From Actinomyces slackii (lineage in GTDB: Bacteria; Actinomycetota; Actinomycetes; Actinomycetales; Actinomycetaceae): a stretch of 64,000 nucleotides of DNA. The stretch covers positions 3,038,001 through 3,102,000 of the forward strand of contig NZ_LR134363.1 in NCBI RefSeq assembly GCF_900637295.1. Reading direction: 5' to 3'. Below are positions 10,116 to 37,829 of the stretch, in pieces. Below the pieces are notes generated by a model. The model was given only the letters and a program-made list of their open reading frames with translations. It was not told the origin of the DNA and did no database searches. Every line of letters begins with the position of its first letter. The stretch's first letter is position 1. Made by a program: the position numbers and the translations under genes.

Positions 10116-12065
10116 ATGCCCGACATGCCCGCAGCCGCCCCCTCAGGGTCCGCGGCTGAGCCCACCGTGCCGGCCCAGCCGGCCCAGCCGGCCCAGCCGG
10201 CCCAGCCGGCCCAGCCGACTCAGCCTGCCCAGACACCCCAGTTGACCCAGCCCCAATTCGACATCCTCTACGCCCTGCTGAGGGCCGGGAGCGCCCTGAC
10301 CCAGCGCGAGCTCCACACCGCCACCGGGATGTCCCTGGGAGCGGTCAACACCGCGGTGCGCGAGTGCGAGGCCCTGGGCCATCTCGCCGAGCGCCGGCTG
10401 ACCGAGGCCGGTCGGGCCGCGCTGGAGCCCTACCGGGTCGACAACGCCATCATCATGGCCGCCGGCCTGTCCCAGCGATTCGCCCCCATCTCCTACGAGC
10501 GCCCCAAGGGCATCCTGCGCGTGCGCGGCGAGGTCCTGGTCGAGCGGCAGATCCGCCAGCTCCAGGAGGCCGGGATCACCGACATCACCGTCGTGGTGGG
10601 CTACAAGAAGGAGTACTTCTTCTACCTGGCCGAGAGGCTCGGCGTGAGGATCGTGGTCAATGACGACTACACCAACCGCAACAACAACGGCTCGCTGTGG
10701 GTGGTGCGCCAGGCCCTGGGCAACACCTACGTGTGCTCCTCGGATGACTACTTCACGGTCAACCCCTTCGACTCCCACGTCCACAAGGCCTACTACTCGG
10801 CCCAGTACGTCGAGGGCCCCACCGAGGAGTGGTGCCTGATCACCGGGGCGGGCGGGCGCATCACCGGCGCCCAGATCGGCGGGCGCGACGCCTGGACCAT
10901 GCTCGGGCACGTCTACTTCGACCGCGCCTTCTCCGCGACCTTCCGGCGCATCCTGGAGGAGGTCTACCACCTTCCCGAGACCCCGCCCAAGCTCTGGGAG
11001 GCGATCTACATCGACCATGTCAAGGAGCTCGACATGGTCATCCGCCGCTACCCCGACGGCGTCATCAACGAGTTCGACTCCCTGGACGAGCTGCGCGGGT
11101 TCGACCCCCTGTTCTTGGAGAACGTGGACTCCGAGTCCCTGGACAACATCGCCTCGGCCCTGGGCTGCCCCAAGACGGAGATCCGCGACCTCTACCCGCT
11201 CAAGCAGGGGATCACCAACCTGTCCTGCCACTTCACGGTGGGCGACAAGGAGTACCTCTACCGCCACCCCGGCATCGGCACGGACAAGATCATCAACCGG
11301 GAGGTCGAGTTCGAGGCCCTGCGTCTGGCCTGCGAGCTGGGCCTGGACCGCACCTTCCTGACCGGCGATCCGGCCAAGGGCTGGAAGATCTCCTCCTTCA
11401 TCCCCGACGCCCACACCCTGGACCCCTCCCGGCCCGGGGAGCTCGAGCAGGCCATGCGCATGAACCGCGACCTCCACACCAGCGGCGCGCAGCTGTCGCG
11501 GAGCTTCGACTTCGTCCAGGAGGGGATGAGGTATGAGAGGCTCCTGGAGGAGCACGGCCCCATTGACGTGCCCGGCTACGCCGAGCTGCGGGACAAGGTC
11601 GTGCGCCTCAAGGCCCATGCCGACGCCGATGGCTTCCCCATCGTCGCCAGCCACAACGACCTGTCCTTCGTCAACGTCCTGGTGGACGCCACCGGGCGCC
11701 TGGACCTCATTGACTGGGAGTACGCCGGCATGTCCGACGTCGCCAGCGACTTCGGGACGCTGGTGGTGTGCTCCGAGCTGAGCCCCGAGCAGGCGCAGAC
11801 CGCCCTGACCGCCTACTTCGGGCGCGAGCCCACCGCCGTCGAGCGCCGCCACTTCTGGTCCTACGTGGTCTTCGCCGGGTGGTGCTGGTACGTGTGGGCC
11901 CTGGCCAGGGAGGCCGAGGGCGACGACGTGGGCATGTGGCTGTTCATCTACTACCGTCACGCCGCCGAGCACGTCGACGCCCTGCTGGAGTCCTACGAGT
12001 CCGGCGCCGAGGAGCTGGACGCCCACCTGAGCGGCCACCGCCTGAGCACGAGGAGCGGGTCATGA
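10116..12065 (+). CDS. licCA: LicC-LicA fusion: winged helix, choline-phosphate cytidylyltransferase and choline kinase
   Basis: The 649-residue protein joins three modules. Residues 47-108 form a winged-helix-like DNA-binding domain (LTQRELHTATGMSLGAVNTA). Residues 108-345 are a LicC-type nucleotidyltransferase with AAGLSQRFAP and a following PKG motif. Residues 355-640 are a LicA/choline-kinase domain with HNDLSFVN near 513 (Brenner HxDxxxxN) and IDWEYAG near 531 (metal-binding Asp). LicA phosphorylates choline and LicC makes CDP-choline for LicD transferases. A Pro-Ala-Gln linker at 18-40 comes from a 9-base tandem repeat. The stop overlaps the licB start (ATGA). The substrate could be another amino alcohol, but the complete downstream licBDD set favours choline. 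No strong ribosome site precedes the ATG. Confidence 0.92.
   Translation: MPDMPAAAPSGSAAEPTVPAQPAQPAQPAQPAQPTQPAQTPQLTQPQFDILYALLRAGSALTQRELHTATGMSLGAVNTAVRECEALGHLAERRLTEAGRAALEPYRVDNAIIMAAGLSQRFAPISYERPKGILRVRGEVLVERQIRQLQEAGITDITVVVGYKKEYFFYLAERLGVRIVVNDDYTNRNNNGSLWVVRQALGNTYVCSSDDYFTVNPFDSHVHKAYYSAQYVEGPTEEWCLITGAGGRITGAQIGGRDAWTMLGHVYFDRAFSATFRRILEEVYHLPETPPKLWEAIYIDHVKELDMVIRRYPDGVINEFDSLDELRGFDPLFLENVDSESLDNIASALGCPKTEIRDLYPLKQGITNLSCHFTVGDKEYLYRHPGIGTDKIINREVEFEALRLACELGLDRTFLTGDPAKGWKISSFIPDAHTLDPSRPGELEQAMRMNRDLHTSGAQLSRSFDFVQEGMRYERLLEEHGPIDVPGYAELRDKVVRLKAHADADGFPIVASHNDLSFVNVLVDATGRLDLIDWEYAGMSDVASDFGTLVVCSELSPEQAQTALTAYFGREPTAVERRHFWSYVVFAGWCWYVWALAREAEGDDVGMWLFIYYRHAAEHVDALLESYESGAEELDAHLSGHRLSTRSGS
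10170..10214 (+). repeat. 9-bp tandem repeat (CCGGCCCAG x5) in licCA
   Basis: Five perfect 9-base units, followed by one degenerate copy, encode a Pro-Ala-Gln linker before the winged-helix domain. Changes in copy number would remain in frame. Confidence 0.92.
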
Positions 12066-13102
12066 GGTTCGGCATCATCAGCGGCTGCCTGTGGGGCCTG
12101 GACACGGTGGTGCTCGGCATCGCCCTGGCCATGTCCCCCTTCCTGGGGGCCGGCCAGGCCTCCCTGACCGGGGCCCTGCTCCACGACGCCATCTCCGCGA
12201 TCATCCTCCTGGTCTACATGGGGGCGCGCGGGCGGCTGCGCCACACCCTGGAGGCGGCCAGGACCGGCAGCGGCAAGGCCGTCATGGCCGGGGCGGTCAT
12301 GGGCGGGCCCGTGGGCATGACCGGCTACCTCATCGCCATCAACAACATCGGCCCGGGCTACACCGCCATCATCTCCACCTTCTACCCGGCTGTGGGCACC
12401 CTGCTGGCCTTCCTGCTGCTCAAGGAGAGGATGCGGCCCCGCCAGATCGTGGCGCTCATGGTGGCCCTGGCCGCGATCATCGTCATCGGCTGGTCCTCCT
12501 CGACGGCGCAGACCCCGGGCTCGCCGGTTATCGGGGTGGTCGCCGCCCTGGCCTGCGTCCTGGGCTGGGGCTCCGAGGCCGTCATCCTGGCCTGGGGGAT
12601 GCGCGATGACAAGGTGGACAATGAGACGGCCCTGCACATCCGCCAGACCGTCTCGGGCCTGTCCTACCTGGTCGTCGTCGCGCCCGTGGCCGGCATCATC
12701 GGCTTCACCGCCCAGGCCACCGTGTCCCCCTCGGTCGGGGTCGTCTTCCTGGCCTCCCTGGCGGGCGCGGTCTCCTACCTGTTCTACTTCCAGGCCATCG
12801 CCCATATCGGCGCCTCGAGGGGCATGGCCCTCAACATCTCCTACTCGGCCTGGGCGGTGGTCTTCGCCCTGGTCCTGCTGGGGACGGTGCCCACAGTCCT
12901 GGATGTGGTGTGCTGTATCGTCATCCTGGCAGGCACGGTGCTCGCCGCGACCCCCGACCTGACCGATCTGCTCCCCCGGCGGTCCCGGGTCCCCAAGGAC
13001 GTCCTGGCCCAGGTCAGCGGGCAGGGCCGTGGGGCGCCCGACTCCGAGCAGCCAGAGCAGCCCGAGCTCCCCGACAACCCGATGGGATCCGCGCATGACT
13101 AA
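12062..13102 (+). CDS. licB: LicB-like choline permease (EamA/DMT transporter)
   Basis: The 346-residue protein has about ten membrane helices in two homologous halves, the drug/metabolite transporter (EamA) fold. Its position between licCA and licD identifies it as the likely LicB, which imports choline for phosphocholine decoration in Streptococcus and Haemophilus. A charged helix end (LLKERMRPRQIVALM) after helix 4-5 is typical of the fold. The C-terminal 45 residues are a cytoplasmic Pro/Glu-rich tail not expected in the family core. Its ATG overlaps the licCA stop, and its TAA lies just inside the licD1 start, so the operon is tightly coupled. Confidence 0.88.
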   Translation: MRFGIISGCLWGLDTVVLGIALAMSPFLGAGQASLTGALLHDAISAIILLVYMGARGRLRHTLEAARTGSGKAVMAGAVMGGPVGMTGYLIAINNIGPGYTAIISTFYPAVGTLLAFLLLKERMRPRQIVALMVALAAIIVIGWSSSTAQTPGSPVIGVVAALACVLGWGSEAVILAWGMRDDKVDNETALHIRQTVSGLSYLVVVAPVAGIIGFTAQATVSPSVGVVFLASLAGAVSYLFYFQAIAHIGASRGMALNISYSAWAVVFALVLLGTVPTVLDVVCCIVILAGTVLAATPDLTDLLPRRSRVPKDVLAQVSGQGRGAPDSEQPEQPELPDNPMGSAHD

Positions 13103-14000
13103 CCCCGCCCCCTCCGCCGCGCAGGGGGACCTGCGCGGCGTCCACGCCCTCATCACCCGGATCCTGGGCGAGCTGGACCGGGTGTGCCGGGAGCTGGACA
13201 TCCCCTACGCCGTCTACGGGGGCACCGCCATCGGGGCGGTGCGCCACCAGGGCTTCATCCCCTGGGACGACGACGCCGACGTGCTCATGACCCGCTCCGA
13301 CTACGAGCGCTTCCTGGCCCAGGCCCCGGCCCGCCTGGCCCCGGAGTTCCGGCTGGACAGCACCCGCACCGTCCCGGACTTCCCCTTCATGTTCACCAAG
13401 ATGGTCCTGCCCGGCACCCTCATGGTTCCCCAGTTCGCCAAGGACTCGCGCTACCGGATGCCCATGTTCGTCGACATCCTGCCGGTGGACAACATCCCCG
13501 ATGACCCGGCCGCCTTCCGGGCCATGAGCCGCCGCAGCTGGCTGTGGGGGCGCCTGCTGTTCCTGTGCGGGACGCCGCGGCCCTACCTCATCGGGGCCAG
13601 CAGGCCCGCCCGCGCCGCCATCTACACGGCCACCACCCTGGCCCACTGGGGGATGCGCGCCCTGCGCATCACCCCGCGCGCCCTCCAGCGCCGCTGGGAC
13701 GCGGCGGTCAGGCGCTACGAGCACACCCCCACCGCCCGGATGGCCGACTTCACCATGCGCGACCCCGAGAACTGGGTGGTCACCCGCGAGGAGCTCTACC
13801 CCGCTCTGGACATGCCCTTCGAGAACATCACCGTCAAGGTCCCCCGCGCCTACGACGCGTTGCTGCGCCGCGGCTACGGGGACTACATGGAGCTGCCGCC
13901 CGAGGAGCAGCAGCGCAACCACGAGCCCTTCCTCATCGACCTGGGCCCCTACGCCCACTGGGTCGATGAGGCCCCCGGGGCCGGGGAGGCACGCGGATGA
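13095..14000 (+). CDS. licD1: LicD family phosphocholine transferase (copy 1)
   Basis: The 301-residue protein carries the LicD nucleotidyltransferase-fold signature: YGGTAIGAVRH at residues 41-51, followed by the IPWDDDADV block with the DDDAD metal cluster at 58-62. LicD enzymes move phosphocholine from CDP-choline to a sugar of a lipid-linked or surface glycan at the inner membrane. A GYGDYMELPP motif near residue 265 is the usual LicD C-terminal signature. The ATG at 13095 overlaps the end of licB by 8 bases, and the stop overlaps licD2 (ATGA). It is clearly a tandem paralogue of the next gene. It may differ from it in acceptor sugar. Confidence 0.95.
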   Translation: MTNPAPSAAQGDLRGVHALITRILGELDRVCRELDIPYAVYGGTAIGAVRHQGFIPWDDDADVLMTRSDYERFLAQAPARLAPEFRLDSTRTVPDFPFMFTKMVLPGTLMVPQFAKDSRYRMPMFVDILPVDNIPDDPAAFRAMSRRSWLWGRLLFLCGTPRPYLIGASRPARAAIYTATTLAHWGMRALRITPRALQRRWDAAVRRYEHTPTARMADFTMRDPENWVVTREELYPALDMPFENITVKVPRAYDALLRRGYGDYMELPPEEQQRNHEPFLIDLGPYAHWVDEAPGAGEARG

Positions 14001-14872
14001 CCCAGCCCGGATACTCAGACCCCGAGGTCCTGCGCAAGGTCCAGCGCGCCACCACGCTGGTCCTGGCCGAGCTGCACCGCCTCTGCGCCCAGCTGGGCAT
14101 CCAGTACGCCGTCTACGGGGGCACCGCCATCGGGGCGGTGCGCCACCATGGCTTCATCCCCTGGGACGACGACGCCGATGTGTGCATGGCGCGCGAGGAC
14201 TACGAGCGCTTCCTGGCCCAGGCCCCCGACCACCTGAGCCCCGGCTTCCGGCTCCTGGATCCGCGCACCACCCCCGACTACCCCCAGACATTCGCCGTGC
14301 TGGGCCTGGAGGGCACCGAGTTCGTCTCCCAGGCGGCCCGACGGCGCCCCTTCGTCATGCCCCTGGGCGTCGACGTCTTCCCCCTGGACACCGCCCCCCG
14401 CGACGCCGCCGCCTTCAGGCGCCAGTGCCGGGGCACCTGGCTGTGGGGCCGCCTGCTGTTCCTGCGCGGGACCCCCAGCCCGGTGATCGGCCTGCCGGCC
14501 CCGGCCCGTCAGGTGGCCGTGGCCGTCATGCACGCCGTTCACTGGGGGCTGCGCGCCCTGCGCGTGACGCCGGCGGCCCTGCAGCGGCGCTGGGAGCGCA
14601 CGGCCCGCCGCTTCGAGGGGCAGGACAGCCCCGTGCTGGCCGACCACTCCACCCGCGACCCCGCCCACTGGGCGGTGGAGCGCGATGAGCTCTTCCCCGC
14701 CGTCGTCGTGCCCTTCGAGGACATCGAGGTCAACCTCCCCCGCGCCTACGACGCCGTGCTGCGCCGCGGATACGGGGACTACATGGAGCTGCCGCCGGTG
14801 GAGCAGCGCGTCAACCACCAGCCCTTCCGGATCACCTTCGGCACCTTCGAGGCCGGGGACGGGGCCCGGTGA
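13997..14872 (+). CDS. licD2: LicD family phosphocholine transferase (copy 2)
   Basis: The 291-residue paralogue of licD1 has the same YGGTAIGAVRHHG and IPWDDDADV blocks (DDDAD at 57-61) and the same C-terminal GYGDYMELPP. The N-terminal region and the segment around residues 85-125, which would shape the acceptor site, differ more. Two LicD copies allow two positions on the repeat unit to be modified, as in pneumococcal teichoic acid (licD1/licD2). The start overlaps the licD1 stop, and the TGA overlaps the GTG of the flippase gene (GTGA), so it lies in the same transcript. Confidence 0.95.
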   Translation: MTQPGYSDPEVLRKVQRATTLVLAELHRLCAQLGIQYAVYGGTAIGAVRHHGFIPWDDDADVCMAREDYERFLAQAPDHLSPGFRLLDPRTTPDYPQTFAVLGLEGTEFVSQAARRRPFVMPLGVDVFPLDTAPRDAAAFRRQCRGTWLWGRLLFLRGTPSPVIGLPAPARQVAVAVMHAVHWGLRALRVTPAALQRRWERTARRFEGQDSPVLADHSTRDPAHWAVERDELFPAVVVPFEDIEVNLPRAYDAVLRRGYGDYMELPPVEQRVNHQPFRITFGTFEAGDGAR

Positions 14873-16116
14873 GCCGCTCGGAGCGCTCCCAGCTGGGGCG
14901 CGACTACCTGTGGAACTCGGCCGCCTCCCTGGCAGGCTCCCTCTCGCTGGTCGTCATGCTCTCGGTGGTCTCCCGCTCGGTGGGGATCGAGGCCGCCGGC
15001 GTCTACGCCCTGGCCATCGCCGTCGGGCAGCAGTTCCAGACCCTGGGCATGTACGAGGTGCGCACCTACCACGTCACCGATGTGGAGCACAGGTTCTCCT
15101 TCGGCACCTACCTGGCCACCAGGATCCTCACCGTCGCCCTCATGATCCTGGGGATCATCGGCTACGCCGTGATCTCGGGCAAGGACGCCCCGACGGTCCT
15201 GCTCATCATGCTGGTGGCCTTCCTGCGCCTCTTCGACGCCTTCGAGGACGTCTTCTACAGCGAGTTCCAGCGGGTGGGCCGCCTGGACCTGGGGGGCCGG
15301 GCCAGCTTCCTGCGCACGCTGGTGACCGCGGGGGCCTTCTGCCTGCTGCTGGTGGTCACCGGGGATCTGCTCATCTCCACCCTCGTGACGCTGGCGGCCT
15401 CACTGGTGGCGATGGTGGCGACCTTCCTGCCACCGGCCAGGCGCCTGTTCCCCCTGACGGCGCAGTGGGACCGCAGGGCCATCGCACGGGTGCTCTACGA
15501 GTGCCTGCCCCTGTTCATCGCCCTGTTCATCGCCATGTACCTGGCCAATGCGCCGCGCTACGCCATCGACCGCTTCCTGGACTCGGCCCAGCAGGGCTAC
15601 TTCGCGATCATCTACATGCCCGCCGTGGCCATCAACCAGCTCTCCCTGCTGGTCTTCCGCCCCCTGCTGACACGGATGGCCACGCGGTGGGTGGAGGGCG
15701 ACTGGCGGGGCTTCACCGCGATCATGAGGCGGGGCCTTCGCACCACCCTGGCCGCCTTCGTCGTCGTCGCGGCCGTCACCTATGTGGCGGGCCCCCTCAT
15801 CCTGGGGCTGGTGTTCGGCCAGGACGTCTCCGGCATGCGCCCCGAGCTCATGGTGCTGGTGGCGGGCGGCGCGATGAACTCCGCCGGGGTCATCCTCTAC
15901 TACGCCCTGGCCACCATGCGCCGCCAGCGCCTGGCCCTGTACGCCTACCTCCTGGCGGCCGCCATCATCACCGCCCTGTGCGCCGTGCTGGTCCCGCCCC
16001 TGGGGCTCCTGGGCGCCTCTCTGGCCTACACCGGGGCGATGACGCTGCTGGCCGTCCTGTTCGCGGTGGGCATCCACGCCGCCGGCCGGTCCGCCCGCGC
16101 CGGCGGGTCACGGTAG
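14869..16116 (+). CDS. Wzx-type polysaccharide flippase (MOP superfamily)
   Basis: The 415-residue protein has about 12 membrane helices in the polysaccharide-transport (PST) arrangement of the MOP superfamily. The N-terminal SQLGRDYLWNSAASLAGS segment and the mid-protein GDWRGF cytoplasmic loop fit that group. Such proteins flip undecaprenyl-linked oligosaccharides to the outer face. It starts at GTG 14869, overlapping the licD2 stop. Coupling to licD suggests that it moves the phosphocholine-bearing unit, functionally similar to pneumococcal TacF, whose specificity for choline-containing chains is known. That substrate link is inference. Confidence 0.88.
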   Translation: MSRSERSQLGRDYLWNSAASLAGSLSLVVMLSVVSRSVGIEAAGVYALAIAVGQQFQTLGMYEVRTYHVTDVEHRFSFGTYLATRILTVALMILGIIGYAVISGKDAPTVLLIMLVAFLRLFDAFEDVFYSEFQRVGRLDLGGRASFLRTLVTAGAFCLLLVVTGDLLISTLVTLAASLVAMVATFLPPARRLFPLTAQWDRRAIARVLYECLPLFIALFIAMYLANAPRYAIDRFLDSAQQGYFAIIYMPAVAINQLSLLVFRPLLTRMATRWVEGDWRGFTAIMRRGLRTTLAAFVVVAAVTYVAGPLILGLVFGQDVSGMRPELMVLVAGGAMNSAGVILYYALATMRRQRLALYAYLLAAAIITALCAVLVPPLGLLGASLAYTGAMTLLAVLFAVGIHAAGRSARAGGSR

Positions 16117-17263: not shown

Positions 17264-19035
17264 GCCTTCTGAGAGGCTTTCTGCGGCGCCTTCTCAGGCG
17301 CGCTGGAGGCCTCCGGCGCGCAGGGGCGCACCAGCATGAGCGCGGCCACCAGGGCCACCGCGTACATGAGCGAGCCCAGGGCCCACACGGCCATGGGGCT
17401 GATCGGGATGTCCCACCACCACTGGGGCTGGAAGTTGAGGTTCATGGGCATCCAGCCGGCGTCGTCCTTGCCGACGCTGTGCAGCCCGTGGGTGTAGCGC
17501 AGCAGGATGCGGTGCAGCGCATAGGCGTGGGCCAGGGCGGACATCCCCACCAGCAGGGTGGCCTGGGGGCCTGTCAGGACGGCCTCGCCCTTGATGCGGC
17601 GCAGCCAGATGAGGAGGAAGGGGGCCAGCAGGGGAAGGAGGTAGCGGGGCTGGAGCTCGTAGATGCTCTCGAAGCCCTGGGTGTAGGACAGGACCACGGG
17701 CAGGCCCAGGAGCGCGCCGGTCATCACGCCGGCGGATAGGACCGTCCTGACATCCAGTGCCCGGGCGCCGGCGAACAGGGCGAAGCCCGCCAGGCTCAGG
17801 GCGATGACCACCGTGGGCCCATCGAGGGGGACGTCGAACCAGCCGGCGCCCCACCGCTGCCCCCAGCCCCAGAATCCGGCGAGGTACTCCGGCAGCGTGG
17901 CAATGGTCAGCCGCAGCCGCTCGCTGTCGCTCAGCACGCTAGGCTGGGGTGAGGAGGAGGCCACGGCCGCGGACTGCCCCGAGCCCAGCATCATCCAGGC
18001 GCCGATGGCGCTGACCACGGCGGCGGCCAGGCCCGGGATGATCATCCCGCGGCGCAGGCGGGCGCCGATGAGGACCGCCAGGGAGACGACGAGCAGGTAG
18101 AAGGCGGAGTCCCCGCGGCAGGCGCAGGCCATCACGGCACCGACCAGGCCCAGGCCCAGCAGGGACCATCGCCGTCGGCCCTCGGCGCGCAGGGTACCGT
18201 AGAGCCCCGCCGCGTAGGCCAGCACCCCGGTCAGCGCCCAGGAGCTCGGGTTGTTGGAGACCACGAGGTAGAGGCCCATGGGCATCCAGGCCAGGATGAT
18301 GCTCAGCGCGTACTGCGAGCGCAGGCGCGCGGGCAGGGCCCAGCCGATGGCGCCCAGGAGCGCCATGGCGATGAGGAGATTGGCGCCCCGCATCACCAGG
18401 GCGGACTCATCGACGTCGTCGCCGATCAGCAGGTGGTGGAAGCGGTAGTAGCCCGTCGGGTAGTTGCCGTCGTCGTAGCGCCGGGTGTAGATGGTCTTGC
18501 CCTCGGGCACCGAGCCCTGGCAACTCGCGGAGATCTCCTCGTGGAAGGCGTAGCAGCGCGCGGTCTCGGACACGCGCTGGGGCACCTCGACCCGGAGCTC
18601 CCCCTCGACGACTCGCGTGGCGCAGCCCGAGGACTCCACGGGCCGTGGGCACCAGATGCTGCCCAGGTGGAAGTCGTCGTCGGGCGAGCCGCCCACGGGC
18701 GAGGCCAGGGCCCAGCTCAGCCCGGTGGCGAGCACCGCCACGATGAGCAGGGCCGAGGCCGCCCACCTCGATCCGCGACTCTGAAGCAGGCGCGCCAGGA
18801 CGCCCAGCGGCCCGCGACGCGAGCCCGCGACCGGAGCCGCCGGGGTCACCTGCGGTCCGGACTGCGCTTCCTCGCTCTGCCCTGCCCCCACGGCCTCAGC
18901 GGGCTGCGCAGTCTCAGCGGACCCGCCGGACCCGGCGGGCTCAGCGGGCTCAGTGGTCTGAGCGCCCTGGGCCCTTGGGGGCGGGGTCTGCTCGACGGGC
19001 GGGGTGTCGGCGGAGGCGGGGGTCTGCTCAGTCAC
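17233..19035 (-). CDS. DUF2142 family polytopic membrane protein
   Basis: The 600-residue protein starts with about 75 residues of Pro/Ala/Glu/Gln low complexity. A helix follows at about 90-110, then the large first extracytoplasmic loop with the SPDDDFHLGSIWC motif, and about ten further helices. The acidic DDDFH after the first helix resembles the acidic first-loop motif of GT-C glycosyltransferases. DUF2142 proteins sit in rhamnan and teichoic-acid-like clusters; their reaction is unproven. Four cysteines in the first loop may form disulfides. The start GTG overlaps the rmlCD stop by 8 bases, so it is co-transcribed with rmlCD, and its 3' end overlaps the convergent GT4 gene. Confidence 0.85.
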   Translation of the reverse strand: MTEQTPASADTPPVEQTPPPRAQGAQTTEPAEPAGSGGSAETAQPAEAVGAGQSEEAQSGPQVTPAAPVAGSRRGPLGVLARLLQSRGSRWAASALLIVAVLATGLSWALASPVGGSPDDDFHLGSIWCPRPVESSGCATRVVEGELRVEVPQRVSETARCYAFHEEISASCQGSVPEGKTIYTRRYDDGNYPTGYYRFHHLLIGDDVDESALVMRGANLLIAMALLGAIGWALPARLRSQYALSIILAWMPMGLYLVVSNNPSSWALTGVLAYAAGLYGTLRAEGRRRWSLLGLGLVGAVMACACRGDSAFYLLVVSLAVLIGARLRRGMIIPGLAAAVVSAIGAWMMLGSGQSAAVASSSPQPSVLSDSERLRLTIATLPEYLAGFWGWGQRWGAGWFDVPLDGPTVVIALSLAGFALFAGARALDVRTVLSAGVMTGALLGLPVVLSYTQGFESIYELQPRYLLPLLAPFLLIWLRRIKGEAVLTGPQATLLVGMSALAHAYALHRILLRYTHGLHSVGKDDAGWMPMNLNFQPQWWWDIPISPMAVWALGSLMYAVALVAALMLVRPCAPEASSAPEKAPQKASQKAQPALPARTS

Positions 19036-20470
19036 CGAGACCCGCCTGGTCGCCCAGCGCCGCGACGTACTCCTCCAGACGCTCCATGGAGTCGGCCGGG
19101 GTGAATCCGGTGGCCTCGATCTTGGACAGGTCCAGGGTGGAGATGAGGGGCCGGGGGGCCACCTGCTTGCCGGCGAAGTACTCCTCGGTGGTGATCGGGG
19201 TGACCGCCTCGGGGCTGTGACCGGTCAGCTCGTAGACGCGCTTGGCCACATCGGCCCAGGAGACCACCGGGCCCTGCCCGGAGAGGTTGTAGGTGCCGTA
19301 GTCCGCGCCGGTGTCCAGCAGGTGGATGATGCCCTGGGCCAGGTCCGCGGTGAAGGTCAGGCGCCCGACCTGATCGGCGACCACCGCGGGCTCCACGCCC
19401 TTGGCAGCCAGGCCCGCCATGGTGCGCACGAAGTTCTTGCCGGGGCCCACCACCCAGGAGGTGCGCACCAGGTAGTGGCGCGGGGCGGCCACCACGGCCG
19501 CGTCCCCTCCGGCCTTGGACTGGCCGTAGACGCCCAGGGGGCTGGGGGCCTCGTCCTCGGTGTGGACCTCGGCGGTGCCGTCGAAGGTGTACTCGCTGGA
19601 GATGTGCACCAGGGTCAGGCCGTGCGACGCGGCGGCGCGGGCCAGGTTGGCCGGGCCGGTGGCGTTGGCCCGCCAGGACAGGCGGCGGCCCTCGGGGGTC
19701 TCGGCGCCGTCGACGTCGGTCCAGGCGGCGGCGTTGATGATGATGTCGTAGTCCCCCCAGGGGAAGGAGTCCATGGCGGCGGTATCGGAGATGTCCACCT
19801 CGGGCAGGTCCACGCCGGTGGCGGTGTAGCCGGCGCCGCCCAGGCGCTCCATGAGCTCGCGGCCCAACTGCCCCTTGGCGCCGGTGACCAGCACGCGCCT
19901 GCCCGCCTCGGCCGGGAAGGGGGTGACCTGGGCCATGCGCGGGTGGGCCTTGTCCTTGTCGGACAGGATCGCCTGGTCCAGGTCGATGGGCCAGGGCACG
20001 GCGGCGGTCTCATCGGCCAGGTTCAAGAAGGTGTACTGGGCCTCGGGCGACCAGTGGTCGTTGACCAGGTAGGTGTAGGCGGTGCTCGGCTCCAGGGTCT
20101 GGTAGGCGTTGCCCACGCCGCGCGGCACGAACACGGCCACCGAGGGGTCGATCTCGCAGGTGTAGACCGCCCCGAAGCTGGGCCCCTCGCGCAGGTCCAC
20201 CCAGGCGCCGAAGACCCGGCCGGTGGCCACCGAGACGAACTTGTCCCAGGGCTCGGCGTGGATGCCGCGGGTGACCCCGACCTCGTCGTTGAAGGAGATG
20301 TTGTTCTGCACCGGGGCGAAGTCCGGCAGGCCCAGGGCCACCATCTTCTCGCGCTGCCAGTTCTCCTTGAACCAGCCCCGGTTGTCCCCGTGAACAGTCA
20401 GGTCGATCCGCAGGAAGCCGGGGATCGGCGTCGTCTCGATGCCCAGCGGCTTGGTGGTCTCGACGGTCAT
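19028..20470 (-). CDS. rmlCD: RmlC-RmlD fusion: dTDP-4-keto-rhamnose 3,5-epimerase and reductase
   Basis: The 480-residue protein carries the last two steps to dTDP-L-rhamnose. Residues 1-185 are the RmlC cupin, with the catalytic His in RGIHAE (H71) and the Tyr-containing AYTYLVNDHW segment. Residues 190-480 are the RmlD short-chain reductase, with the GAKGQLG nucleotide loop at 197-203 and the YGQSK catalytic pair near 317-321. Fusions of this type are common in Actinobacteria. An AGGAG ribosome site precedes the ATG at 20470. Together with rmlA and rmlB in this window the pathway is complete. Confidence 0.96.
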   Translation of the reverse strand: MTVETTKPLGIETTPIPGFLRIDLTVHGDNRGWFKENWQREKMVALGLPDFAPVQNNISFNDEVGVTRGIHAEPWDKFVSVATGRVFGAWVDLREGPSFGAVYTCEIDPSVAVFVPRGVGNAYQTLEPSTAYTYLVNDHWSPEAQYTFLNLADETAAVPWPIDLDQAILSDKDKAHPRMAQVTPFPAEAGRRVLVTGAKGQLGRELMERLGGAGYTATGVDLPEVDISDTAAMDSFPWGDYDIIINAAAWTDVDGAETPEGRRLSWRANATGPANLARAAASHGLTLVHISSEYTFDGTAEVHTEDEAPSPLGVYGQSKAGGDAAVVAAPRHYLVRTSWVVGPGKNFVRTMAGLAAKGVEPAVVADQVGRLTFTADLAQGIIHLLDTGADYGTYNLSGQGPVVSWADVAKRVYELTGHSPEAVTPITTEEYFAGKQVAPRPLISTLDLSKIEATGFTPADSMERLEEYVAALGDQAGLGD

Positions 20471-30028: not shown

Positions 30029-31431
30029 CGCCTCAGCCTGGCCAGGCGCCAGCGGACCTTCTCCGCCAGGCCGCCGGCTCCCCGGGTGCGCAGCACGTGG
30101 ACGGTCGAGCGCAGGTCGCGGCGCACGGCGGAGATGACGGGGATGCGCCCGGCATGGGCGCCGCGCGCCACCCTCTCGTGGTCCGCGGCGCGGTAGGGGG
30201 CGGCGCAGTAGGCCCGCAGGGGCGCCAGGGAGCGGCGCCACTTGTACTCCTGGGAGACTTCACTGACCCGCTGGCGCACGCGCTGGGACTCCTGGGGGTC
30301 GGTGAGCAGCTCGAGGATCGCCTGGGCCAGGGCCTCGACATCCTCAACCTCCACAGTGCGGCCAAGCGACCGGGCCTCGACGACATCCGCGAAGGAGTCC
30401 CCGCGCGAGCACACGATGGGCAGGCCCGCCCACAGGTAGTCCAGGATCCGGGTGCGGAAGGAGAAGGCCGTCTCCACATGGTCGAAGTGCGTCGAGATGC
30501 CGATATCGGCGTCCATGAGGTAGTTGATGCGGTCCTCGTAGACCACCCAGTCCTCGTGGAAGAACACGGTGGTCCCCGTCAGCCCCAGCGCGTCGGCCTC
30601 CTGGCGGGTCCGGGTGGCCATGTCCATCTGGGGGACATCGGGGTTGGGGTGCTTCATGCCCAGGAAGAACAGGCGCACCGTGGGCACCTGGGCCCGCACC
30701 AGGTCGATGGCCCGCACCACGCTGAGCGGGTCGAACCAGTTGTAGACGCCCCCTCCCCAGATGATCACCGGGTCCTCAGGGCCGATGCCGGGCACGCGCC
30801 CCCGGATGGGGTGGTGGGTCTGGACGGGGTCGGCGTCGGAGGTGCCGAAGGGCACGACGTCGATGAGGCTGCGCAGCGAGGGGTCGGCGTCGTAGACCTC
30901 CGGGTTGATCCGGCCGGTGGCCGCCAGATGCCCGATCCACAGGTCCCTCTGCTTCTCCGAGGCGCAGATGAAGAAGTCCCCGCGCGCCGCCTGGGCGCCC
31001 AGCTCGGCCAGGGCCCGGGCCAGGGCGGCCTCGCGCTGGTCCATCGGCTCGTACTTCTCCACCTCCAGGGACTCTAAGTGGAAGGGGTCGTAGAGGTCGA
31101 TGACGATCTTGCACCCACTGGTGCGCAGCCAGGGGAAGGTGGCGGCGATGTAGCCCTGGATGATGAGGATGTCGGCGCCCTCGACCTCGGCGCGGAAGGA
31201 CTCCACGGTGGCCCGGGCTGTCTGGAAGCCCACGCCCTGCCGCTCGCAGGCGGCGAAGGTCAGCAGGCGCACCCTGTGGCCCTCCTGCGAGAGGTGCGCC
31301 GCGATCTCCCAGGCGCGGATGGCCGGGCCGGCCATCCTCTCCCCCAGGGTGTCGAGTGTGGCCACGATGATCCGCTGAGGGCCGGGGCCCGCCTGCTGCG
31401 CGCTCATCTCCAGGCTCTGATCCATGCTCAT
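30025..31431 (-). CDS. Family 4 glycosyltransferase
   Basis: The 468-residue GT-B enzyme has an N-terminal domain starting RIIVATLDTLGERMAGPAIR, a conserved start in GT4 proteins linked to Wzm/Wzt exporters. Its donor domain has IIWGGGVYNWFDP, the HEDWVVYEDRINYLMDADIG segment and TRILDYLWAGLPIVCSRGDS as the nucleotide-sugar site. A basic tail of about 70 residues may contact the membrane. The ATG at 31431 overlaps the wzt stop; the longer frame to 31476 is rejected because it would run into wzt. It likely extends the polymer exported by the adjacent ABC transporter. Confidence 0.9.
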   Translation of the reverse strand: MSMDQSLEMSAQQAGPGPQRIIVATLDTLGERMAGPAIRAWEIAAHLSQEGHRVRLLTFAACERQGVGFQTARATVESFRAEVEGADILIIQGYIAATFPWLRTSGCKIVIDLYDPFHLESLEVEKYEPMDQREAALARALAELGAQAARGDFFICASEKQRDLWIGHLAATGRINPEVYDADPSLRSLIDVVPFGTSDADPVQTHHPIRGRVPGIGPEDPVIIWGGGVYNWFDPLSVVRAIDLVRAQVPTVRLFFLGMKHPNPDVPQMDMATRTRQEADALGLTGTTVFFHEDWVVYEDRINYLMDADIGISTHFDHVETAFSFRTRILDYLWAGLPIVCSRGDSFADVVEARSLGRTVEVEDVEALAQAILELLTDPQESQRVRQRVSEVSQEYKWRRSLAPLRAYCAAPYRAADHERVARGAHAGRIPVISAVRRDLRSTVHVLRTRGAGGLAEKVRWRLARLRR

Positions 31432-32654
31432 GACTGCCCGCCTTCCGTGACTGCCGCTGCGGCCGGGACCTGCCACCGGGCGGACATGGACACCGGCCCC
31501 CCGGAGTCCAGCCCCGAGCCGGCGCCCACCGTCAGCCAGGCGATCTCGCGCACGAAGTCCACCACATCATCGGGCCCGGTTCCCACGATGCCGGCGTGCA
31601 CGGAGTACTGGCCCTTCTGCAGGGGCAGGCTGGGGATGGTGATGTCGACATGCCCGGGCCCCTGAAGGTCGGGCAGGCGCGCCCCCTGGTCCCGGGAGAA
31701 GCAGGCCCACAGGTGCTCGCCCTCGGCGGTGTCCATGGTGATGCCCAGGTTCGGGTCGGGGATCCGGGAGTGGGCGGTGTAGTGGATCCGCAGCACCACG
31801 CGGTCCCCGGTGCGCAGGCCCTCCTCGGTCATGGGGCCCTGGGGGCCCAGGACCTCGACGCGATCGACCATGGCCTCCCCGGTGCCCCAACGGACCCGGC
31901 CGTTGTCATCGGTGCGGATGTTGGTGCGGGCCGCATCGGCGTACTGCTCCAGGACGACGCCGGCCTCCCCCACGGCGCGCAGGCTGCCGTGGTCCAGGTA
32001 GGCGGCGCGGTCGGCCATGGAGCGCAGCTGGGGCAGGGAGTGGGAGACGACGACGACGGTGCGCCCCTCGCGCCGGAAGTCGGCGAACTTCTCGGCGCAC
32101 TTCTCCTGGAAGGTGGCATCGCCCACGGCCAGGATCTCGTCGACCAGCATGATCTCGGGCTCGGTGTGGATGGCCACGGAGAAGCCCAGGCGCACGTACA
32201 TGCCCGAGGAGTAGTTCTTCACCGGCTGGTCGATGAAGGCCTCGACGCCGGAGAAGTCCACGATCGCGTCGAATCGGGCGTCGACCTCCTGCTTGGACAT
32301 CCCCAGGATGGAGCCGTTGAGGTAGATGTTGTCCCGCCCGGAGAGCTCGGGGTGGAATCCCGAGCCCACCTCCAGCATGGCCGCCATGCGCCCGCGCCGC
32401 TCGATCCTGCCGGAGTCGGGCACCAGGATCCGGGCCAGGCACTTCAGCAGGGTGGACTTGCCCGAGCCGTTGTCCCCCACCAGGGCGAAGGTGGAGCCCT
32501 GCGGGATCTCCAGGCTGACGTCCTTCAGGGCGTGGAAGTCCCGGTAGGCCGAGGCCCCCCGGCGCAGGAGCGCCGACTTCAGGGTGTTGTTGCGCTCGGT
32601 GAAGACTCGGAAGGTCTTGGAGACGCCCTCGATGGTGATCGCCGCATCCGTCAT
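31428..32654 (-). CDS. wzt: ABC polysaccharide exporter ATPase with C-terminal cargo domain (Wzt)
   Basis: The 408-residue protein has an ATPase domain at residues 1-240 and a beta-rich Wzt C-terminal domain at about 245-400. The ATPase has Walker A GDNGSGKST at 60-68, the YSSGMYVRLG signature near 150 and Walker B IMLVDEILAVGD near 172. In O-antigen exporters such as E. coli O9a the C-terminal domain binds the capped glycan end and sets specificity. Its presence here implies a defined terminal modification recognised before export. The ATG at 32654 lies one base after the wzm stop. The longer frame overlaps wzm and is rejected. Confidence 0.95.
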   Translation of the reverse strand: MTDAAITIEGVSKTFRVFTERNNTLKSALLRRGASAYRDFHALKDVSLEIPQGSTFALVGDNGSGKSTLLKCLARILVPDSGRIERRGRMAAMLEVGSGFHPELSGRDNIYLNGSILGMSKQEVDARFDAIVDFSGVEAFIDQPVKNYSSGMYVRLGFSVAIHTEPEIMLVDEILAVGDATFQEKCAEKFADFRREGRTVVVVSHSLPQLRSMADRAAYLDHGSLRAVGEAGVVLEQYADAARTNIRTDDNGRVRWGTGEAMVDRVEVLGPQGPMTEEGLRTGDRVVLRIHYTAHSRIPDPNLGITMDTAEGEHLWACFSRDQGARLPDLQGPGHVDITIPSLPLQKGQYSVHAGIVGTGPDDVVDFVREIAWLTVGAGSGLDSGGPVSMSARWQVPAAAAVTEGGQS

Positions 32655-32655
32655 G

Positions 32656-33486
32656 TCACAGAACCTCCGCCAGTCGGGGCTGATACCGGTCGAATACGCG
32701 CCACCCGATGAGGAAGACCCCCAGGGACAGGACGAGCACGATGGCGCAGGTGCTCGCATCGGGCAGCCGGTTGTCGTAGAGGAGGTTCCTGAAGGCCTCG
32801 ATAAAGTGGTAGAAGGGGTTGAGCCTGTAGGCGGACAGGACCGTGATCCCGTGGAAGGAGCCCAGGGAGTCCGAGACCTTGGCCACCATGGCGGCCGGGT
32901 AGACGATGGGGTTGGCGTAGAACCAGATCTGGAAGAGGATGCCCACCAGGTACTGGGTGTCGCGGAAGTGCACGTTGGCGATGGCCATGATCATCGCGGC
33001 GCCCGTGGCGAAGAGCGTGAGCAGGGCCATGAGCAGGATCGTGGGGATGATGTAGAGGTAGGGCATGCCGCCCAGCAGGGCGATGGCCACGGCGAGCACC
33101 GCCATCTCGATGGACCACGAGTAGAGCCAGGACAGGGAGTTGGACACCAGCAGGGCCGAGCGCGGGAAGTAGACCTTCTTGATGAGGTTCTCATTGCCCA
33201 CCAGCGCGCTCATCCCCCCGTTGACCACATTGGAGAAGAAGGCCCAGGGCAGCAGTCCGCACATGAGCCACAGCGCGAAGATGTTCATGCCCGAGGGGTC
33301 CCCGGGGTCGGGCTGGACGCGGATGATGAAGGCGAAGACGAAGGAGTAGACGAGCATGAGGGCCAGCGGGTTGGCCAGCGACCACAGCTGCCCCAGGGCG
33401 GTCCGCTTATACTTCCCCTTGACCTCGCGCATCGTGAGGTTGTAGAGGAGCTCACGCGAGGCCCGCAGATCATTGATGATCGACAA
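32656..33486 (-). CDS. wzm: ABC-2 type polysaccharide exporter permease (Wzm)
   Basis: The permease has about six membrane helices and the ABC-2 features YNLTMREVKGKYKRT at its cytoplasmic N-terminus and NPFYHFIEAFRN near the end. It pairs with Wzt to export complete glycan chains. I place the start at TTG 33486 (276 residues), because AAGGA lies six bases before it and the product then begins at the usual family position; an ATG at 33525 would add 13 residues but has no ribosome site. This is the first gene of the wzm-wzt-GT4-GT2 operon, after a strong hairpin. Confidence 0.93.
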   Translation of the reverse strand: MSIINDLRASRELLYNLTMREVKGKYKRTALGQLWSLANPLALMLVYSFVFAFIIRVQPDPGDPSGMNIFALWLMCGLLPWAFFSNVVNGGMSALVGNENLIKKVYFPRSALLVSNSLSWLYSWSIEMAVLAVAIALLGGMPYLYIIPTILLMALLTLFATGAAMIMAIANVHFRDTQYLVGILFQIWFYANPIVYPAAMVAKVSDSLGSFHGITVLSAYRLNPFYHFIEAFRNLLYDNRLPDASTCAIVLVLSLGVFLIGWRVFDRYQPRLAEVL

Positions 33487-33565
33487 AACACATCCTTCGT
33501 CCGGAGGCACCGCCTGCCGGCGCATCCGCGCCCATCATAGGCCGAGGCCCCTGGCCGCGCGCACG

Positions 33566-33660: not shown

Positions 33661-36444
33661 TCAGCCGAAGTGGCGGGTCATGAACTGGACCAGCTCGATG
33701 CCGTAGTGGCGCGAGGCGGCCCAGCCCCCGCCGCTGGGGTTCTCCTGGATGCCCAGGTGCTGGATGTGCCGGGCCGAGCCCTTGCGCACATAGGAGAAGC
33801 GGGGGTCGACCACCGGGTTCTTCAGCGTGGCGGCCGAGGCCTTGGCGTCGCCGTAGGCCCGCAGGTGCTGGACCTGGGCGCGCAGGCCGGTGCGCACGTC
33901 CTTGAAGGAGTGGCCGGCCACGCCGCCTCCGGTCGCCCCGATGCCGCCGAAGTTGAACTGGGAGGCCTTGACGTCCCCGGTGAACTGCAGCCAGCCGGTC
34001 TCCTTGACCACCTGGGCGAAGAGCAGCTCGGGGCTGACGCCCTCGGCGACGGCCTCGTCGTAGACCATGGTGAAGAAGGCGGTGGGGGTCGGCGCCCCGC
34101 CGCGGCCCATGACGCCGCTGGGGTAGCTCCGCCCCGAGGAGGCGTAGACCGAGACCATCTTGTTGATGACCGTGGCCCTGGAGGCCGTGGGGCCGGACAT
34201 GATCGGGCGCAGGGCCTGGGTCTCGACCACGGCGCCGTTCTTGCGGAGCACCATGTTATTGCCCTCCTGGGTCCAGCCGTCCCTCACCTGCGAGGCCTGA
34301 GCGGTCTGGGCGGCCTGCCTGGCCTGGGCGGCCTGGGCGACCTGGCCGGTCCACACCCCCGAGGAGTTGAAGCTGTGCCTGACGCCCCCGATGCTCACGG
34401 TCCCGGTGACCATGGCGCCGCTGGAGCTCAGGTAGTACCAGGAGCCGCCGTCCTTGAGCCAGCCCGTGGTCATGGCGCCGCTGGAGCCGAAGTGGTACCA
34501 GGTGCCGCCCACCTTGGCCCAGCCCGTGACCATCGCGCCGCTGGAGCTCAGGTAGTACCAGGAGCCCCCGACCTTGAGCCAGCCCGTGGTCATGGCCCCG
34601 CTGGAGCCCAGGTGGTACCAGGTGCCGCCCACCTTGGCCCAGCCGGTCACCATCGCGCCGCTGGAGGCCAGGTAGTACCAGGAGCCCCCGACCTTGGCCC
34701 AGCCGGTGACCATCGCGCCACTGGAGCTCAGGTAGTACCACGAGCCGCCGACCTTGGCCCAGCCGGTCACCATGGCGCCGTCGGAGCCCAGGTAGTACCA
34801 GGAGCCGGAGTGGGAGATCCAGCCCGTGGCCTTGTTGCCCTTGGCGTCCTGGTAGTACCACTTCCCCCCGCTGTTGACCCAGCGCGAGGCGCCCTGGAGC
34901 TGGTTCTGGGCGATGGAGCGGATGGTGCCCAGGGAGGCGTAGCCCCTCGCGCCGGGGCAGGCGGTGGCGCCCACGTCCCGGTGCCCGATGATCCTGGGCA
35001 GGGAGAGCGTGGTGCCGGCCTGGTACTTGTCGGTGGTCCTGATGGTGAAGCTGGCTGAGCCGCTGGCGTTGCTGACCCCGGCGCGCCCCAGGAACCAGCC
35101 GGCCATCTTGCCCACGGCATCGATCTGGGTGGAGGAGGGGGTGACGTTGGAGTAGTCGCCCATCATGGACAGGCCCATGGTGCCGGTGTTGGCCCCGCGG
35201 GCGTGGCCCCCGATGACCATCTGGCCGGCCCCGGCCCGGGTGGAGCCGGAGCGACCCTCGAAGACCTGGCCGTACTTGTCGATGAGGAAGTTGTAGCCGA
35301 TGTCCCCCCAGCCCAGGGTCACGGCGTGGTAGTGGTAGATGCCCCGCACGATGGAGGGCGACTGCGCCGCCGTGTAGGAGTTCCCGCCTGCCGTGTGGTG
35401 GACGACGACGTGGGAGGCGCTGACGTAGGAGGGGCTCCAGGACATGTTGGCCTCGTTGGCGCCCCACTCGGCGCGGGTGGTCACGCCCACGGGCAGGCCA
35501 TTGGCCCAGGTCTTGACGGGCAGGCCGGTGGCGACGCCCGAGGGCGCCGAGCCGGCGCCGGTCTGGGCCGCCGTCGTCACGACGGGCGCCTGGCCGGCGG
35601 GCGCCTGATCGGCGGGCTGGGCGGGGGCGGTCCTGGCGGTGGCCCAGTCCGGCAGCTCGGCCAGCGGGAGGGGCTGGGCCTGGGAGCCGATGGAGGCCCC
35701 CGTGACCTCGGTGATCTCAGTGGGCTCGGCCTCAACGGTGGGAAGCGAGGCCGGGTCGAGCTCCTGGGCGCCCTCGGGCTGGGCGGGCACGAGCTCGAGG
35801 TGGAGGTCGGCCGGCAGGGCATCGGCGTCGCTGACCACGGAGGCCTGGACGGCGTCGGCCCCACCGGTGATGATCTCCGCGGTGCCGCTGGTGGCCTCAT
35901 CGCTCCCATCAGCGGTCTCCGCCGGGTACCACGGGGACCAGGATCCCTGCTCGCGCATGCGCAGGTAGATCTGGGCGCCCTGGGGCAGCTCGCCCGACCA
36001 CGTGAAGCCGGCGACGACGAAGGCGTTGACCTCCAGGGGATCGGTGAGGATCGCGGCCTCGGCCACCAGGTCGTCCTGGTCGTGAACCTCGGTATCCGCG
36101 ATGGTGCGGATGGTCGGACCACTGCCGGCGCCGGCCTGCTCGGCCGTGCCTCCAGTGCCCCCAGCGCCCTCAGCGCCCTCAGCCTTCCCGGCCTCCTCAG
36201 CCCCGTCCTGATCCGCCTGCCCCTCGGCCTCATTCTCAGCGCCCTGGGCCCCGTCCTGCTCCGCGGCGTCATCGAGACCGGAGCGGCCGGCGTCGGTGGC
36301 CTGCCCCGAGGGGGTGGTCAGGCTCAGGCGCTGGACCGGGGCGGGGTCCTCGGATGAGTCGGGCTCGGCGGAGGCCGTGGGGATGATGCCCAGGAGCAGG
36401 AGCGGAACCGCCACTGCTGCGCCCAGGAGGCGAGTTGCCGACAT
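33661..36444 (-). CDS. Secreted choline-binding murein hydrolase: amidase, choline-binding repeats, glucosaminidase
   Basis: The 927-residue protein has a signal peptide (residues 1-30, cleavage after ASA) and an acidic low-complexity segment to about 130. A PGRP/amidase_2 domain lies at about 318-515 with zinc ligands in VVVHHTAGG (near 347) and GHRDVGATACPG (near 486-494). Eight canonical 20-residue aromatic repeats (SWYYLSSSGAMVTGWAKVGG type) and one degenerate repeat follow at about 520-700. The C-terminus is a GH73-like glucosaminidase with a catalytic-type Glu in VVKETGW near 815. Such repeats bind choline on teichoic acids in pneumococcus. It should cleave peptidoglycan while docked on phosphocholine made by the lic genes in this locus. 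The ATG at 36444 has a GAAGGA site. Confidence 0.93.
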   Translation of the reverse strand: MSATRLLGAAVAVPLLLLGIIPTASAEPDSSEDPAPVQRLSLTTPSGQATDAGRSGLDDAAEQDGAQGAENEAEGQADQDGAEEAGKAEGAEGAGGTGGTAEQAGAGSGPTIRTIADTEVHDQDDLVAEAAILTDPLEVNAFVVAGFTWSGELPQGAQIYLRMREQGSWSPWYPAETADGSDEATSGTAEIITGGADAVQASVVSDADALPADLHLELVPAQPEGAQELDPASLPTVEAEPTEITEVTGASIGSQAQPLPLAELPDWATARTAPAQPADQAPAGQAPVVTTAAQTGAGSAPSGVATGLPVKTWANGLPVGVTTRAEWGANEANMSWSPSYVSASHVVVHHTAGGNSYTAAQSPSIVRGIYHYHAVTLGWGDIGYNFLIDKYGQVFEGRSGSTRAGAGQMVIGGHARGANTGTMGLSMMGDYSNVTPSSTQIDAVGKMAGWFLGRAGVSNASGSASFTIRTTDKYQAGTTLSLPRIIGHRDVGATACPGARGYASLGTIRSIAQNQLQGASRWVNSGGKWYYQDAKGNKATGWISHSGSWYYLGSDGAMVTGWAKVGGSWYYLSSSGAMVTGWAKVGGSWYYLASSGAMVTGWAKVGGTWYHLGSSGAMTTGWLKVGGSWYYLSSSGAMVTGWAKVGGTWYHFGSSGAMTTGWLKDGGSWYYLSSSGAMVTGTVSIGGVRHSFNSSGVWTGQVAQAAQARQAAQTAQASQVRDGWTQEGNNMVLRKNGAVVETQALRPIMSGPTASRATVINKMVSVYASSGRSYPSGVMGRGGAPTPTAFFTMVYDEAVAEGVSPELLFAQVVKETGWLQFTGDVKASQFNFGGIGATGGGVAGHSFKDVRTGLRAQVQHLRAYGDAKASAATLKNPVVDPRFSYVRKGSARHIQHLGIQENPSGGGWAASRHYGIELVQFMTRHFG
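34381..34860 (-). repeat. 60-bp direct repeats encoding choline-binding modules
   Basis: Eight units with an exact 60-base period each contain a TAGTACCA or TGGTACCA landmark (ending at 34440, 34500 and so on to 34860), encoding the W-Y-Y/H core of one module. Two alternating variants (SWYYL and TWYHL/F) suggest duplication of unit pairs. Confidence 0.93.

Positions 36445-37829
<1,385 letters not shown>

Follow-up and report, generated by a model that had tools for sequence, protein, structure and literature searches.

The predicted hydrolase gene and its choline-binding repeats

The window analysed here, a stretch of 64,000 nucleotides from the single-contig, 3.22 Mb genome of Actinomyces slackii (NZ_LR134363.1), contains a minus-strand gene (33661..36444) for a putative murein hydrolase of 927 amino acids, in which an amidase domain, an array of choline-binding repeats (CBRs) and a glucosaminidase domain follow one another, as seen by Pfam, alignment and predicted fold. 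Its reading frame opens with an ATG at 36444, with GAAGGA just 5' of it as judged by eye, and the first ~26 residues of the translation (36367..36444, minus strand) resemble a signal peptide; a long N-terminal region then precedes the amidase domain. The latter (Amidase_2, residues 344-498, 34951..35415, minus strand; Pfam 4.8e-15) has a PGRP fold in the predicted structure. Residues H349, H350, H488 and C496 are invariant across 28 aligned sequences, and the protein carries the H, H and C that are the conserved zinc ligands of Amidase_2 / PGRP amidases. The glucosaminidase domain (residues 794-924, 33673..34065, minus strand; Pfam Glucosaminidase 8.2e-8) lies within a predicted model of residues 720-927 whose fold matches the catalytic domain of LytB, so that both the domain and the fold of the GH73 (LytB-like) family are present. 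All Pfam domains of the protein scored above their own curated cut-offs. The closest proteins in the large database bear the name N-acetylmuramoyl-L-alanine amidase; their hosts include A. capricornis, A. faecalis and A. viscosus, and the A. viscosus homolog has the same architecture. A PADLOC scan of the 927-residue protein gave no match.

The CBRs occupy residues 521-700 (34345..34884, minus strand) and were delimited by Pfam, TRF, eye and predicted fold. Nine 20-residue units can be counted by eye, of which seven are canonical and the first and last are degenerate. The initial annotation had described an amidase-glucosaminidase with eight repeat modules between its catalytic domains; Pfam and fold confirm this order, and the figure of eight agrees with the stretches matched by Choline_bind_1 (PF01473, 6.2e-48), though not with the count by eye. 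Choline_bind_3 (3.7e-43) and Choline_bind_2 (7e-8) matched as well, and PF01473, PF19127 and PF19085 were all above cut-off. Independently, TRF reported a 60/120-bp tandem array at the same place. A Trp-Trp-Tyr pattern can be read in repeats 2-8 and in 220 repeats of orthologs; two Trp and one Tyr per repeat presumably form the aromatic choline site. The nearest folds to the repeat model are the pneumococcal choline-binding proteins CbpE, CbpF and CbpJ. Chance repetition is ruled out as an explanation of the array by the concordance of Pfam, TRF and fold.

A second CBR protein of 395 amino acids, with a C-terminal 'sunset' domain (NF051437), is encoded elsewhere in the same genome (L013:6936-8123; G000:C1, ~86.9-88.1 kb), about 257 kb from the lic genes around the circle if the chromosome is assumed to be circular.

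The lic operon and its co-occurrence with choline-binding repeats

Profile and structure-database matches identify a fusion of a winged helix-turn-helix (wHTH) domain, LicC (CTP:phosphocholine cytidylyltransferase) and LicA (choline kinase) at 10116..12065 on the plus strand. Its best solved relatives are 1jyk, a CTP:phosphocholine cytidylyltransferase (pneumococcal LicC), and the choline kinase 4r77, with sugar nucleotidyltransferases ranking lower. Downstream on the same strand lie a LicB-like EamA transporter (11768..13102, with a true start probably later, at ~12047), two members of the LicD phosphocholine transferase family (LicD1, 13029..14000; LicD2, 13997..14872) and a polysaccharide flippase (14869..16116; Polysacc_synt 26.8 bits, cut-off 28.2). 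LicA, LicB, LicC and LicD, which together define the Lic-1 pathway, are thus all found in the window, LicB being assigned solely from its position and its EamA family. A distance of 17.5 kb separates the end of the lic genes (16116) from the amidase gene, and both belong to a common polysaccharide locus; the same-locus claim of the initial annotation holds, with its distance of 20 kb shortened accordingly.

The distribution of CBRs was compared with that of LicC-LicA in samples of 49 Actinomyces genomes, 297 genomes of the order and 296 of the phylum, the last two of which may share genomes. Absence of LicC-LicA was called at E <= 1e-10 (genus), 1e-20 (order) and 1e-15 (phylum), and absence of CBRs at E <= 0.001. 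Within the genus LicC-LicA was found in 31/49 genomes (Lic+) and CBRs in 27/49, all 27 being among the 31; LicD (PF04991) was found in the same 31. The remaining 18 genomes (Lic-) had neither, a whole-genome search of each giving no CBR match at E <= 0.001. The Fisher values of the association are 1.0e-9 for CBRs anywhere in the genome and 2.4e-8 for the module on the amidase, both ignoring relatedness. In the order sample 11 of the 13 genomes with CBRs also had LicC-LicA, the two misses (G142 and G259) having one or two marginal repeats; in the phylum sample the corresponding figure was 8/9, and the miss (G510) had one marginal repeat.

To control for relatedness, an rpoB tree of 48 genomes was used (G037, without rpoB, was left out). 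A minimum of 8 changes in lic and 9 in CBR presence was required on this tree. Among 7 independent pairs differing in lic on supported branches, CBRs differed in the same direction in 5.7 pairs on average and never in the opposite one (median p 0.031, range to 0.125).

LicC-LicA relatives aligned over the fused length are found across Actinomycetota. The best 80 of 167 include, beyond Actinomyces, records named Schaalia, Arcanobacterium, Varibaculum and Bifidobacterium and many Coriobacteriia. A CBR reading frame near LicC-LicA was detected in 13 of these 80 loci by a strict regular expression, and in 24 (within 10 kb) by a 19-residue profile built from the orthologs, which matched none of the 18 Lic- amidase loci. 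Flanks of 10 kb on either side fall short of the Actinomyces amidase, and many of the loci end at contig ends. As a separate observation, the endolysin of Eggerthella phage PMBT5 (L270:991-1968) bears choline-binding repeats with 51% identity to those of the window, which suggests that choline may be present on an Eggerthella wall. Phage records matching the repeats numbered 183, of which 159 were Streptococcus phages; none in this tally was named for Actinomyces.

Surface-polysaccharide genes make up most of the 31 window reading frames scanned. They include an RmlC-RmlD fusion (19028..20470, minus strand) and a polysaccharide export ABC transporter (31428..33525, minus strand; Wzt 31428-32759, Wzm 32656-33525), and the amidase gene is flanked by Wzm/Wzt on one side and by a divergently oriented rmlB on the other. 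A large TPR protein is also encoded within the locus (25864-29046); its NB-ARC and NACHT-associated matches are weak, both below cut-off, and a PADLOC scan of it gave no match. Two incidental causes of the association were considered and rejected. The export transporter does not drive it, as G012 has a window-like Wzm/Wzt yet neither lic nor CBRs; nor is physical linkage its sole cause, as CBR genes distant from lic are also absent from Lic- genomes.

The same-locus amidase in relatives

By tblastn, the amidase catalytic domain was found in 46/48 stretches searched (one per genome, window included); the two without it, from G013 and G017, were both taken around other CBR genes. In 44/46 cases the gene diverges from an rmlB no more than 5 kb away (no more than 1.3 kb in 40/46), G025 and G046 having no rmlB within the stretch examined. 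In the window rmlB occupies 36663..37829 on the plus strand, its coding start probably being at ~36834 as judged from the alignment of relatives. From position and similarity, the same-locus amidases are probably orthologs.

C-terminal CBRs are present on the amidase of 23/28 Lic+ genomes and of 0/18 Lic- genomes. By motif, the Lic- amidases carry a GDWDGNGTDTLAVRRG-like repeat in 9 genomes and LGFP repeats in 8, while that of G032 carries no module. The first is an unnamed repeat of ~45 residues at the C terminus (L085:7994-10195, L109, L119 and others). For this GDWDGNG-type repeat no Pfam model was found in 3 proteins scanned, including that of Lic- G012, while LGFP (PF08310) was confirmed by Pfam in Lic- G011 and G020. 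Of 11 proteins scanned, two have a glucosaminidase domain, and these two carry CBRs; the CBR-bearing protein of G006 has none. Modules were typed by motif patterns, with Pfam confirmation in 10 relatives. In the tree test four calls were set by hand: LGFP for G001 and G018, whose contigs end there, and none for G005 and G032. A contig end truncates the G022 amidase as well, and those of G015 and G029 were matched in two frames.

The exchange can be followed in pairs of close relatives. G026 (Lic+, CBRs) and G011 (Lic-, LGFP) share 97.4% identity in rpoB and 80% in the N-terminal and catalytic part of the amidase, and their C-terminal parts align at only 30%, over 149 residues. The values for G030 and G018 are 97.8% in rpoB and 76% in that first part of the amidase; the corresponding values for G030 and G014, two genomes with CBRs, are 97.1% and 89%.

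The G005 LicC-LicA match is partial, covering residues 43-407 only. In its sister G032, which lacks both LicC-LicA and LicD, a LicB-like gene adjoins an amidase without a module. These two genomes (L263, L264, L079; L262, L103) give the impression that pathway and module have decayed together.

Interpretation and known systems

With high confidence, we propose that the gene encodes a secreted murein hydrolase with two catalytic heads, retained at the cell surface through its binding of phosphocholine. We infer its secretion, the choline-bearing glycan, the binding, the catalysis and the physiological role. Choline would be imported by LicB, phosphorylated and then activated to CDP-choline by the fused LicC-LicA, and moved as phosphocholine by LicD1 and LicD2 onto a surface glycan made by the locus. 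The repeat solenoid would grip this phosphocholine and so bring both catalytic domains, amidase and LytB-like glucosaminidase, to the wall, where the hydrolase might act in cell separation or turnover; cell separation is our first guess because pneumococcal LytB separates daughter cells. The docking hypothesis has strong comparative support; what the analysis itself shows is gene content, domains, predicted fold, conserved aromatics, co-occurrence with lic and the different module on the Lic- same-locus amidase. The pairing of choline decoration with wall-hydrolase docking put forward in the initial annotation is thereby upheld by comparison, as 27/27 genomes with CBRs have LicC-LicA and the rmlB-side amidase is free of CBRs in 18/18 Lic- genomes.

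Several findings weigh against the proposal. No CBR turns up at all in four Lic+ genomes (G009, G010, G041 and G047), and LicC-LicA occurs without CBRs in 9 order-sample genomes outside the genus and in 4 of the phylum sample, counts which leave out G209 and weak kinase-only phylum matches. LicC-LicA without CBRs is commoner than the converse; therefore, CBRs imply the pathway and not the reverse. Five Lic+ amidases lack CBRs: those of G002 and G047 bear LGFP (by Pfam), those of G010 and G041 the GDWDGNG repeat (no Pfam model), and that of G005 no module. G009, G013 and G017 have lic and no amidase in the lic and rmlB stretches searched; a whole-genome search for the amidase gave no match in G009, a match covering the repeats only in G017 (among the matches listed) and two matches in G013, the best at 6.2e-26. 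In the pair test for the amidase module, 4.5 pairs differed in the same direction and 0 in the opposite, with a median p of only 0.0625 (range to 0.125). After tree correction, then, the direction of the association is consistent and its p value modest. Moreover, the swap may often be the replacement of the whole amidase gene by another allele and not of the module alone, the N-terminal and catalytic part being only 76-80% identical in the swapped pairs, against 89% in G030 and G014. Finally, large clostridial toxins take the top three places in a PDB sequence search with the protein, CbpE coming only fourth; glucan-binding proteins also use the same repeat fold; and the NCBIfam model for glucan-binding repeats gives 62.3 bits, under its cut-off of 147.7. 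The toxins lead this ranking because their long repeat arrays add up, and the pairing of the repeats with the lic pathway is affected neither by the ranking nor by the whole-gene caveat.

The fold shared with toxin and glucan-binding repeat domains, the toxin repeats at the top of the search, and the residence of amidase and lic in one variable locus would fit another explanation, namely that the repeats bind glucan or another wall or biofilm sugar, as in glucosyltransferases, and that the link to lic is incidental linkage in a travelling polysaccharide cluster. We consider this improbable: by fold and by their Trp-Trp-Tyr pattern the repeats are nearest to choline-binding proteins, CBR proteins distant from lic keep the same rule (e.g., the second one of A. 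slackii), and the 18 Lic- genomes are devoid of CBR matches at E <= 0.001. Slightly less probable still is that the ligand is choline on others (oral streptococci, host mucus or lipids), the enzyme being a weapon or adhesin and not a self-docking autolysin. The protein does look secreted, and LicABCD homologs exist in neighbours such as Streptococcus mitis and S. oralis (PMC10434233). A foreign ligand would, however, not be expected to make CBRs depend on the organism's own lic genes, as they do in all 27 genomes; furthermore, the amidase persists beside rmlB in Lic- species with other modules or none, and for this reason a housekeeping role is suggested.

Within the choline-docking proposal, a wider possibility, which we offer tentatively and rate at somewhat less than even, is that Actinomyces uses the amidase next to rmlB as a general docking hydrolase and changes its C-terminal module, or the allele as a whole, to match the cell's own surface polymer: CBRs with a lic-decorated polymer, LGFP or a GDWDGNG-type repeat otherwise. 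On this view LGFP and GDWDGNG repeats would serve as receptors of other polymers from the variable locus, which would itself be a swappable ligand-receptor cassette. Natural module exchange on a same-locus amidase offers a clean test of the role of phosphocholine in the actinobacterial wall, and a handle on the ligands of the LGFP and unnamed repeats. A choline-anchored hydrolase is itself of a known kind; it is the natural exchange of its docking module that adds interest. This exchange, the LicC-LicA fusion and the second CBR protein go beyond the initial annotation.

Choline docking of wall enzymes is presented in teaching as a feature of the pneumococcus and related bacteria. In Actinomyces the pathway and a choline-reading hydrolase are a near-rule (CBRs in 27/31 Lic+ genomes and 0/18 others), and the combination is found again in other lineages of actinobacteria. 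Actinobacterial CBR proteins and the Lic-1 genes of Actinomyces have each been published already, separately, so the initial remark that such modules are best known from Firmicutes undersells the published record. In the portions of the papers available, choline-binding proteins are mentioned in A. odontolyticus XH001 (PMC6166536), Bifidobacterium dentium Bd1 (PMC2788695) and Arcanobacterium phocae (PMC8235330); they are of the same kind and phylum as the Actinomyces hydrolase, and are treated there as biofilm, adhesion or virulence factors without a tie to host lic genes or a wall hydrolase. A. viscosus and A. gerencseriae are reported as phosphocholine-positive by antibody, with Lic-1 enzymes present (PMC10434233), and the term choline-binding is absent from the main text of that paper. 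A. viscosus thus combines the antibody phenotype with a hydrolase of the same architecture; A. gerencseriae (G009) is the exception, a Lic+ genome without CBRs in an antibody-positive species. Phosphorylcholine genes and choline-binding proteins are described together in all Gemellae (PMC7136413), so that the pairing is known outside Streptococcus; Gemella is a Firmicute, and actinobacteria are not discussed in the available text. Within the open-licence literature, as far as its accessible text goes, no paper was found that joins lic genes with choline-binding proteins in an actinobacterium.

Close parallels are also found in the pneumococcus. The LytA amidase, the LytB glucosaminidase and LytC likewise unite a repeat solenoid with wall hydrolase domains in a host with licABCD-type genes, and LytB shares its catalytic fold with the C-terminal domain of the Actinomyces hydrolase. 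Unlike these enzymes, the Actinomyces protein has two catalytic heads flanking the repeats, its amidase is PGRP-like and follows a long N-terminal region, its host belongs to Actinomycetota, and the same-locus amidases of its relatives bear LGFP or an unnamed repeat instead. The functions of LicA, LicB, LicC and LicD occur together in pneumococcal lic1/lic2 and in Haemophilus licABCD (Lic-1), as they do in Actinomyces, where the flippase following LicD parallels pneumococcal TacF, which lies beside the licD genes. The Actinomyces operon differs from both in fusing LicC and LicA behind an N-terminal winged helix, in having two LicD genes, and in being embedded among rhamnose and Wzm/Wzt genes.
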